From: Bacteroidota bacterium | Lineage (GTDB): Bacteria; Bacteroidota; Bacteroidia; Bacteroidales; JAAUTT01 | Assembly: GCA_021779665.1 (NCBI GenBank) | Contig: JAJYAG010000001.1 | Coordinates: 1-64,000 of the forward strand | DNA length: 64,000 nucleotides | Direction of reading: 5' to 3' | Shown here: positions 50,631 through 64,000 of the stretch, in pieces | How positions within the stretch are numbered: position 1 is the first letter of the stretch | Layout of the letters: each line of letters starts with the position of its first letter | Made by a program: the position numbers and the translations under genes | The notes under the pieces: generated by a model | Databases searched by the model: none | Seen by the model: only the letters and a program-made list of their open reading frames with translations | Told to the model about the DNA's origin: nothing

Positions 50631-50716
50631 GAAGTCCACAGTCCTCAAAGACGAGTTTTTTGGTTCAAGTCTGAATTTATATTGGCTGTGGACAGTAGAC
50701 CGTGGTCTGTCGACTA
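50631..50716. repeat. Intergenic word-repeat element
   Basis: GTCCACAG (50634-50641) / CTGTGGAC (50686-50693) plus GTCCTCAAAGACGA and AGACCGTGGTCTGTCGACT, shared vocabulary with 62982-63282. Confidence 0.6.
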
Positions 50717-55563: not shown

Positions 55564-56871
55564 TCATATTCTGTTTAAAGCTCTGATTCTTTGCAGCAGG
55601 GTTGGATGTGAATAATGAAAAAACACATACCACGGATGCGGATTCAGATTACTTAGATTATTTACAGATAAATTTTTAAGGGCTGTTATCAGATTATTTG
55701 CTCCAGCATGGTTGCCAGCAAAAGCATCCGCTTCATACTCATATTTCCTGGAAAGAACATTTAATAGCAATCCCATTATTGTTGAAATTGGACTGTAAAG
55801 TATTCCAAATGCTATGGCTCCGATGTGAAAACTGGGTTGCTCCACACCCAACGCCTGAGATAAAGCCGGCTCTTTAATGAAAAGTGATAAGATAAATAAA
55901 GTCAGCCCTGTTTGAAAAAATGAAATTGCGAGGTTTTTATAAGTATGCTTACGTTTATAATGTCCTATTTCGTGAGCAAGCACAGCAACAATTTCACGAA
56001 TTGTCATTTCTTTGATAAGGGTGTCGTAAAGAACTATACGCTTTTTGCTTCCAAGTCCTGTAAAATAAGCATTTGCTTTGGACGACCGCTTGGAGCCATC
56101 AATCTTATAAATATTGGTGAGTTTAAAATCCAGCTTTTCAGCAAGGTTATTAATAGCATCCTTCAGTTCTCCTTCTTCCAAAGGAGTTTGTTTGTTGAAT
56201 AAAGGCACAATAAGGTTAGAGTAAAACATACTCATAAAAACCATGAAAGCAGTAACCAATCCCCACGCATAGAGCCAGAAATATTCCGTCGTCCGGTAAT
56301 AGAACCAAAGCACTAATCCCAGGATTATTCCACCCAGGATTATGGAAAGGAATAAACCTTTGATTTTATCGAGAATAAAAGTTTTAGGAGTAGTCGTGTT
56401 GAAACCGAATTTTTCTTCGATTACAAAAGTGTGGTAAACACCAAAGGGTGTGTTAATGATATCGGAAGCGAGCCCCAGAATTCCGAAGAAAATCAGTCCC
56501 TTGAGGATGAGGTTGCTGGTTATTGAGCCTGCCCAGGAATCGACAAGCGCAAAGCCTCCAAAAAAGAACATCAGCAAAATCAGAATAAAGGAAAAAGTGC
56601 TGGTAACGTTATCGAATCTGGAATTCACCTTATCATAATCAATTGCTTTCTGAAGTTTTTCGGCGTCGTAGATTCCATGAAGTTCCTGAGGAAGAGGTTT
56701 CTCCCTGTTTTTGCCGTTGAGATAGTTTAAAACTCTGTCGAGCAGATAATCGAAAACAAGAATGGCAATAAGGATAAAGAAAATTACATTATACATATAA
56801 ATTGTTTTTACAAAAGTAGAAAAAGAATCAATTAATTGAATAGACCACAGACCCTGGAACACAGACGACAC
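55564..56871 (-). CDS. M48 family metallopeptidase (Ste24/CAAX protease-like)
   Basis: VLAHEIGHYKRKHTYKN, EYEADAFAG, multiple TM segments. Confidence 0.93.
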   Translation of the reverse strand: MSSVFQGLWSIQLIDSFSTFVKTIYMYNVIFFILIAILVFDYLLDRVLNYLNGKNREKPLPQELHGIYDAEKLQKAIDYDKVNSRFDNVTSTFSFILILLMFFFGGFALVDSWAGSITSNLILKGLIFFGILGLASDIINTPFGVYHTFVIEEKFGFNTTTPKTFILDKIKGLFLSIILGGIILGLVLWFYYRTTEYFWLYAWGLVTAFMVFMSMFYSNLIVPLFNKQTPLEEGELKDAINNLAEKLDFKLTNIYKIDGSKRSSKANAYFTGLGSKKRIVLYDTLIKEMTIREIVAVLAHEIGHYKRKHTYKNLAISFFQTGLTLFILSLFIKEPALSQALGVEQPSFHIGAIAFGILYSPISTIMGLLLNVLSRKYEYEADAFAGNHAGANNLITALKNLSVNNLSNLNPHPWYVFFHYSHPTLLQRIRALNRI

Positions 56872-62027: not shown

Positions 62028-62903
62028 TTATTTCTTTTTTAGCAACTCGTACATGGTAGAACCTATTTCGGCCGGAGATACCACCACGTGAATGCCGCAT
62101 TCGCGCATAATTTTCATTTTGGCTTCAGCAGTATCGGCCTTCCCTCCTATTATGGCACCGGCATGTCCCATACGGCGGCCTTTGGGAGCTGTTTGACCAG
62201 CGATGAAACCAACCACAGGTTTTGTTCCGTTTTCTTTAATCCAGTAAGCGGCATCGGTTTCCATGTTTCCCCCAATTTCGCCAATCATGATGATACCTTC
62301 GGTTCCGGGATCTGCCATAAATAATTTTATAGCATCAAGGGTTGATGTGCCCACAATGGGATCACCGCCTATACCAATACAGGTCGATTGTCCCAAGCCG
62401 GTTTTTGTGATCTGATCTACCGCTTCGTAGGTCAAGGTACCGGAGCGTGAAACGATGCCGACGGTGCCCGGATTATGAATAAAACCTGGCATGATACCGA
62501 TTTTAGCCTCGCCCGGAGTAATGATTCCCGGGCAGTTAGGACCGATGAGTCTTGCTTTTTTGTCCGAAAGGTAATTCTTTACCGTTACCATGTCCTGTAC
62601 CGGGATACCTTCGGTAATAGCTACCACAAGTTCTATTCCTGCATTGGCTGCTTCCATAATGGCATCGGCGGCAAACGCAGGAGGCACAAATATTAACGAA
62701 ACATTGGCACCAGTGGCTTTAACGGCATCTTCAACCGTATCGAATACAGGTCTGTCCAGATGCGCGGTTCCGCCTTTACCCGGCGTAACGCCTCCTACAA
62801 CGTTTGTTCCATATTCGATCATTTGTGAGGCATGAAAAGTTCCTTCGCTGCCTGTAAAACCTTGCACTAATACTTTGGATTGACTGTTAACCAGAACACT
62901 CAT
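62028..62903 (-). CDS. sucD: Succinate--CoA ligase alpha subunit
   Basis: [41 protein letters not shown]. Confidence 0.96.
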
Positions 62904-62981
62904 AGATAAATCTTTTATAACAATAGCTAAAATACGCTTTTTTCATGTTTATTGTTCAATGAGGTGTTGTGAAACATTGGG

Positions 62982-63057
62982 AGACCACCACAGTCGACGG
63001 TCGACACACGTCAGACGACAGTAATACAGGGGAAGACCACAGACGACGGTCCTCAGA
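62982..63057. repeat. Degenerate leading part of the word-repeat array
   Basis: AGACCACCACAGTCGACGGTCGACACACGTCAGACGACAGTAATACAG then AGACCACAGACGACGGTCCTCAGACGACAGTAATACAG. Confidence 0.7.
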
Positions 63058-63282
63058 CGACAGTAATACAGAATATAGGTCGATAGCAGATAGTCCATTG
63101 TCCATGGCCAATAACAAATGTATGCATTTAGCTGTGGTCTGACGTCCGTGGACCGTGGACTTTAGTCGACTGTAATACAGAATACAGGTCGATAGCCGAT
63201 AGTCCATTGTCCATGGCCAATAACCAAAGACAAATGTTTGTATTTAGCTGTGGTCTGACGTCCGTGGACCGTCGACTTTCTT
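63058..63282. repeat. Two near-identical tandem copies of a ~109-116 bp intergenic repeat
   Basis: C(A/T)GTAATACAGAATA(T/C)AGGTCGATAGC(A/C)GATAGTCCATTGTCCATGGCCAATAA...CATTTAGCTGTGGTCTGACGTCCGTGGACCGT(G/C)GACTTT; copy 2 carries a short insertion. Confidence 0.92.
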
Positions 63283-64000
63283 AAATCTTTACAAATATCT
63301 TCCTGACATACATATACCACAATAATCCAAACAGAACCAGAAATCCGCCGGCATATCTTATAAAATCGTACCAATTGCCCGTATACTGTTCCAAACCACG
63401 AATGAAGATATCGGAAACATGCCTGAAATCGAATAAATGAGCGGCTACGTAAGCCACAATAGCATTCGCTCCAATGATAATGAAGAATTTGCTCCATGCT
63501 TTGAGATTCCAAACATCGATAATCAGATAAAACACTGTTAGCAATAACAGGCTGAAACTACCGGCATACAGCACAAACGATCCTGTCCAGATGTGCTTGA
63601 TGATAGGATGTACCGGATGCCATATAATAGCAAGCAGGTAACAGATAGCAGCAAAAATCAGCAGATAACCAACTTTACGATACTTTGTGAAATCCGACCG
63701 CAGCAGGTATCCGGCAAAAACTCCAAGCATGGTGGTAGCCCCAAAATTCAGACTGCTTAAAATCCAGCTGTAAGTTGTTCCATCCTGAAAAGAACCGAGC
63801 AACATTTTATCAATATAAATAGCAGCATTATTGTCAGGAAGATAAATACCTGCAGTTTCACCTGTAGGAAGAAAAGCCATTACCAGCCAGTATATAAGCA
63901 TCAGCGAAACAGTCGCAATTATCTGTCCAATAGCTTTAACGTACAATATCAGTAAAGAAGATATAAAATATCCTGCGGCTATTGCCTGTAAGGTGTTGCT
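63281..64000 (-). CDS. DUF5009/NagX-like membrane protein (heparan-alpha-glucosaminide N-acetyltransferase-like), truncated by window end
   Basis: Frame open to nt 64000 (SNTLQAIAAGYFISSLLILYVKAIGQ...); multiple TM; GTTYSWILSSLNFGATTMLGVFAGYLL. Confidence 0.78.
   Translation of the reverse strand, partial: SNTLQAIAAGYFISSLLILYVKAIGQIIATVSLMLIYWLVMAFLPTGETAGIYLPDNNAAIYIDKMLLGSFQDGTTYSWILSSLNFGATTMLGVFAGYLLRSDFTKYRKVGYLLIFAAICYLLAIIWHPVHPIIKHIWTGSFVLYAGSFSLLLLTVFYLIIDVWNLKAWSKFFIIIGANAIVAYVAAHLFDFRHVSDIFIRGLEQYTGNWYDFIRYAGGFLVLFGLLWYMYVRKIFVKI

Follow-up and report, generated by a model that had tools for sequence, protein, structure and literature searches.

What is the tandem array that lies between sucD and the gene upstream of it in this Bacteroidota contig, and where did it come from? 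The window, by which we mean the whole 64-kb stretch of DNA analysed, had been described from its letters as holding a tandem intergenic array of self-complementary words here. TRF confirmed the array at 63058-63279 with period 109, 2.0 copies and 88% matches, and found no other tandem array in the window. The self-complementarity is real, as the 40-nt arms 62982-63021 and 63132-63171 are 78% complementary, and 62992-63021 is 87% complementary to 63248-63277. The word CTGACGTCCGTGGACCGT, allowing up to 3 mismatches, occurs four times in the window, every time inside the array, with 0.01 occurrences expected. The gene context was also as first read: the SucD gene (PF02629/PF00549) occupies 62028-62903 on the minus strand, the array is intergenic, and its final arm ends at 63277, only 3 nt from the stop codon (63281-63283) of the next gene. 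Four options had been offered for the array, with no choice among them: a structured RNA, a terminator, a protein-binding array or a passively spreading repeat. The evidence below favours a spreading dispersed repeat, and we consider it probable that its building blocks are gene-less (MITE-like) relatives of IVP/IVS elements, piled up behind a stop codon.

The preliminary description took a stretch of about 110 bp as the unit. Tandem copies of 109 and 116 bp do exist, but they are not the basic unit, as the hierarchy runs from heptad to four-heptad arm to unit. Over 62978-63282 the self-match is 0.48 at lag 7, while at other lags, leaving aside 14, 21 and 28, it ranges from 0.15 to 0.31. Each arm consists of four heptads of the form GWCSWYR followed by RGC or RGT, about 30 bp in all, and position 6 of the heptad is C in A-type arms and T in B-type blocks. 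The order of the parts in the array is F1, F2, B1, R1, truncated arm, B2, R2 (Table 1), hence what looks like a unit of 109/116 bp is a B block together with a reverse A arm, duplicated locally.

Table 1. Arms, blocks and duplications of the array, further arms in the window, and example copies of a MITE associated with heptad words.
Feature	Position	Strand	Remarks
Composite array of inverted heptad arms	62982..63281	.	between sucD and upstream gene
A arm F1	62992..63021	+	GTCGACG GTCGACA CACGTCA GACGACA + G; profile score 40.0 bits
A arm F2	63034..63063	+	GACCACA GACGACG GTCCTCA GACGACA + G; 43.1 bits; exact pattern match
B block 1	63079..63109	+	T-type heptads GTCGATA GCAGATA GTCCATT GTCCATG GCC
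A arm R1	63132..63161	-	GTCCACG GTCCACG GACGTCA GACCACA + G; profile score 47.7 bits; exact pattern match
Truncated A arm	63164..63172	+	single heptad remaining, AGTCGACTG; seen in sequence
B block 2	63188..63218	+	GTCGATA GCCGATA GTCCATT GTCCATG GCC; exact B pattern
A arm R2, outermost	63248..63277	-	48.0 bits; 3 nt from stop 63281-63283 of upstream gene
Two tandem 109/116-bp duplications (B block + reverse A arm)	63058..63279	.	TRF
Further A arm outside array	50686..50715	-	40.4 bits; exact pattern match
Degenerate A-arm-like block outside array	56842..56871	+	weak, 24.0 bits
~217-bp MITE, example copies	L100:13878-14094, L072:10801-11016, L249:5334-5548		own genome

To see how far the repeat extends, the array was compared with its own 6.94-Mb genome by BLASTN, which gave 66 matches. 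Together with the further arms in the window these show the repeat to be dispersed well beyond the sucD locus, and no link of the unit to a known IS or MITE was found. Outside its own genome the array gave no match in the plasmid and phage DNA searched. A search of 40 relatives, including four from the same genus, likewise gave nothing at E<0.001. It is absent from the sucD neighbourhood of the closest species, although this region is rearranged there, and in the same-genus genomes the genes neighbouring sucD differ.

The arms themselves number in the hundreds in the genome and are mostly intergenic and stop-proximal; exact matches to the A-type pattern at the fixed G/C positions amount to 128 genome-wide. 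A typical element has a forward arm, a loop and a reverse arm and measures 70-110 bp overall, and one further locus (C89) holds a tandem pile similar to that in the window. Chains of at least four GWC words in 1.06 Mb were found 70 times at lag 7 and 0 or 1 times at each other lag from 4 to 15. In 2.3 Mb of the genome, some stretches of which were picked for containing matches so that no density is drawn from them, we counted 42 runs of three heptads, 127 of four, 5 of five and none longer, while the reversed control gave 10 threes and no fours. As heptanucleotide repeats are common bacterial SSRs (PMC4692102, PMC4679880), slipped-strand expansion of such a repeat followed by decay might come to mind. 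This distribution of run lengths is the opposite of that left by slippage, and the arms occur as inverted pairs, which makes slippage barely credible as the origin.

The variable positions of the heptad also follow a pattern. When the search pattern left these positions open, the 85 distinct arms recovered across the genome had 95-99% A/T at W positions and mostly 80-100% C/G at S positions, and between close arm pairs 80 of the 109 changes at S were C<->G and 45 of the 46 at W were A<->T. Such two-base exchange is not ordinary mutational decay from one ancestor. We suggest constraint by a recogniser which would read weak or strong base pairs at these positions. One could therefore picture an array of sites for a DNA-binding protein, serving the nucleoid, segregation or uptake, which would read the fixed G/C positions and the weak/strong code through the minor groove, and the fixed length of four heptads would suit a defined binding unit. 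We find this reading decidedly unlikely: the words in relatives are species-specific and the repeat is nearly absent from same-genus genomes, an uncommon pattern for a site that organises the chromosome; no candidate protein emerged; and the reader could also be a protein of the element itself, as in the explanation we prefer. It should be noted that our model does not account for the restriction of each variable position to two bases. In the A arms of the genome the A/T, C/G and A/G alphabets persist in highly diverged copies, with mismatches between the arms of an element.

Next we consider placement. Of 94 element clusters 71 could be assigned to a gap between two ORFs, 25 of them in convergent, 42 in co-directional and 4 in divergent gaps, against a background of 128 convergent, 591 co-directional and 210 divergent among the 929 intergenic gaps of at least 60 bp. 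In 43 cases a cluster end lay no more than 12 nt from a stop codon, compared with 22.9 +/- 2.6 under random placement in the same gaps; ORFs were taken by a simple longest-ORF rule, and individual distances are approximate. Many copies thus sit near ORF 3' ends and few between divergent genes, as is typical of REP/BIME elements, and REPs are known to lie less than 20 bp from ORF 3' ends in convergent and co-directional gaps and rarely in divergent ones (PMC3733652). A search of the own-genome DNA examined for empty sites with joined flanks gave no clean one, the matches being mainly a nested MITE and other repeats.

Both strands of the elements form strong hairpins (mean z about -5), and with a distribution equal to that of REPs this could point to a transcribed, REP/BIME-like 3'-end hairpin under selection, which would protect mRNA ends, damp translation or limit read-through; ribosome stalling has been reported at REPs that lie no more than 15 nt from a stop codon (PMC12306157). 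The details of the hairpins speak against it. Among 30 arm pairs the agreement between arms at W, S and R positions was not above chance, and at some positions it was below, e.g. 0.29 versus 0.50 at S5. An anticorrelation at W24, S5 and S26 reaches z of about -2 per position, was noticed post hoc and is not claimed. At discordant purine positions the sense strand would hold 19 A-C and 10 G-U pairs, i.e. no preference for the wobble pair, and in just 6 of 16 elements did the sense strand fold more stably than its complement. Since the arms do not covary and the sense strand shows no G-U preference, selection on RNA pairing is not supported. Rfam gave no match above threshold, and no sense-strand intrinsic terminator was found within the array. 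Further, the element is not conserved beside sucD in the nearest species, and selection against harmful insertions predicts the observed distribution equally well. As to a REP-associated transposase, no arm of at least 10 bits was present in the examined flanks of the eight Y1_Tnp loci of the genome, and neither end of the consensus from 108 A blocks carries a GTAG or CGTC tag. A REP-like function of the array is on the whole unlikely.

We then looked for an autonomous element with the same arms. Among arms 0.4-6 kb apart there were only three neighbours in +- orientation, and one of these, a 560-bp relative at C65:12-614, has an IVP gene at 170-523 between A-type arms (forward at 12-40 and 57-85, reverse at 586-614). 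The gene belongs to PF05635 (23S_rRNA_IVP/S23, four-helix-bundle; E 4e-33) and TIGR02436, with PDB relatives 2gsc and 2rld. The window array has no PF05635 ORF inside and its same-armed relative has one, hence we file the array as a gene-less relative and not as an IVS. There are five PF05635 genes in this genome; among those whose flanks were examined, that at C65 is bracketed by A arms and that at C9 by 8/16-bp words. The C9 gene (L098:12604-13258) lies between inverted arrays of TTAGCACA/TTATCTAA with period 8/16 rather than 7. The loops of the gene-less elements in this genome gave no clear IVP remnant. In another Bacteroidales MAG (L140:2459-2700) heptad arms surround a short ORF that starts like an IVP N-terminus (MAIEFRNLTVYKRK) and then stops; read by eye this looks like an internally deleted IVP element in another species, and it is the best decayed intermediate we have.

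The bracketing extends far beyond this genome. We compared 27 IVP loci, 24 from plasmids together with C65, C9 and L264; the plasmid loci were chosen by protein similarity alone, irrespective of repeats, but for C65 and L264 it was the repeats that led to the locus. The best flank period was 7 or 14 in 24 of the 27 upstream and 23 of the 27 downstream, both flanks were strongly 7-periodic in 20, and the flanks were inverted in 21. The loci come from six phyla (Cyanobacteria, Bacteroidota, Spirochaetota, Chloroflexota, Bacillota and Alphaproteobacteria), and the hosts beyond Cyanobacteria and Bacteroidota are Treponema, Candidatus Chlorohelix, Monoglobus and Azospirillum. By the same two-sided test 14 of 1,610 ORFs in our own heptad-rich genome pass, the C65 IVP gene among them; neighbouring genes on the plasmids give a weaker contrast, with 5 of 13 passing on one side and none inverted. 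In the other genomes G170 (two genes), G041 and G166 the distance between an IVP gene and AGTC heptads is 29-61 bp, which makes at least four such genes versus 0.2 expected within 500 bp, a count made post hoc. The arms at IVP loci elsewhere hold from about 3 to more than 10 heptads and are not strictly of four. The Azospirillum locus (L344) has 4+4 heptads, and its surroundings, read by eye, we take to be 23S rRNA; on that reading one of the 27 loci is a classical 23S rRNA intervening sequence. No IVP relative was confirmed in viral contigs. Several IVP genes were seen inside defence operons with no gene broken (L333 and L336; L350; L346, L351, L352 and L353), between cas6/cas4 of type I-D CRISPR, hsdS/hsdR, or helicase/methylase genes. 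At G439:C6:181208-181516 a PF05635 match falls within an open frame of 544 aa, and is possibly fused to another domain.

We infer common descent of the gene-less and gene-bearing forms in this genome. An intact element would then consist of an inverted array of about four 7-bp words, an S23/IVP gene (PF05635, about 120 aa) and the inverted array again, with 23S rRNA intervening sequences as the case resident in rRNA. Several hundred 30-bp arms would persist without the gene, whether in inverted pairs of 70-110 bp, singly or in tandem piles, much like MITEs beside an autonomous transposon. They favour sites right past stop codons, where insertion in transcribed DNA may do least harm. Mobilisation would presumably occur in trans, with the IVP protein recognising the heptad arms or their hairpin and a further enzyme, perhaps host recombination or a reverse transcriptase, supplying the chemistry. 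For the latter partnership Avd of the diversity-generating retroelements offers an analogue.

The bracketing alone does not give the direction of events, and the heptad hairpins might be primary, with IVP genes as cargo that entered their loops. That other elements do enter heptads is demonstrated by a second MITE of about 217 bp (AGGCTATGTTG...CAACAGAGCCT): nearly all of its 23 copies in the own-genome DNA examined are in or beside heptad words, hence the heptad arrays are its target. We nevertheless find it very unlikely that the IVP genes arrived in this way, as each IVP locus carries its own words on both sides, and arms are present also in the 23S rRNA cases (L344; Coxiella, PMC4990558), where an intergenic heptad array would not be expected.

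Four-heptad inverted elements of the same kind were also found in distant Bacteroidota, namely Chryseosolibacter (13 fours and 1 three), Algoriphagus, Chryseolinea, Cnuella and others. The search pattern for these loci required at least about 3.4 heptads, so that their length is bounded from below and not from above. The AGTC-heptad pattern occurs in 54 of 396 Bacteroidota genomes, some of the matches being longer tandem runs. The control pattern, the heptad read backwards, is frequent in some Bacteroidota, among them G238 (228 matches), G182 and G024, and we take this to reflect other heptad word families in those genomes.

Dispersed heptamer repeats have been reported with neither function nor mechanism known (PMC4692102, PMC4679880), and we found no open-access paper in which intergenic heptamers of this dispersed kind are connected with S23/IVP genes; a description elsewhere is possible. 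Further, we speculate, with somewhat less than even confidence, that S23/IVP genes define a cross-phylum class of mobile elements with inverted four-heptad termini. The heptamers of Bacteroidota, Cyanobacteria and Xanthomonas and the 23S rRNA IVS would be its gene-less or rRNA-resident forms, and the pentameric four-helix protein would recognise the arms and be the agent of their spread, possibly together with a reverse transcriptase in the manner of Avd. If this is true, three puzzles unite, namely the origin of heptamer repeats, the mobility of the 23S rRNA IVS and the role of the S23/four-helix-bundle proteins, and each repeat family is predicted to have a cognate pair of an IVP protein and its heptad word. 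It would also argue against the G-quadruplex as the general cause of heptamer repeats in fours.

Among known systems, REP/BIME with RAYT (PMC3733652) resemble our elements in being short, palindromic and present in many copies beside ORF 3' ends, as dimers and tandem clusters, but the consensus of our arms lacks the GTAG/CGTC tag, and no arm neighbours a RAYT gene in the flanks examined. The TAACTGA repeats of Beggiatoaceae, Cyanobacteria and Bacteroidetes (PMC4679880) are likewise dispersed intergenic heptamers in the same phyla, but they are mostly direct, stand right before start codons and use a single fixed word. Of the published repeats, the Xanthomonas GGGAATC family comes closest in organisation, being mostly of four units, with 70-75 inverted pairs and near the preceding ORF (PMC4692102). 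Like the elements described here, the GGGAATC and GGGGA(C/T)T repeats of Xanthomonas and Nostoc are intergenic heptamers in fours and inverted pairs, rare between divergent ORFs (PMC4692102). For GGGAATC the four units were tied to G-quadruplexes (PMC4692102), which is not the reason for four units here since our degenerate GWCSWYR words have no G-runs, and no associated gene was named in that paper. With the 23S rRNA IVS that carries an S23p/IVP ORF, as in Coxiella burnetii (PMC4990558), the window array differs in having no ORF and in lying between genes in mRNA-coding regions with hundreds of divergent copies, where the classical IVS sits within 23S rRNA and is cut out by RNase III. The two share inverted termini of about 28 bp, four heptads and the capacity to form a hairpin, and the IVS is likewise selfish and sporadic in distribution, with ORF-deleted forms. 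In Coxiella the terminal stem is 28 bp, three GACAGAT and one GACAGAA precede the S23p ORF, and one strain has a 176-bp deletion in the IVS ORF (PMC4990558).
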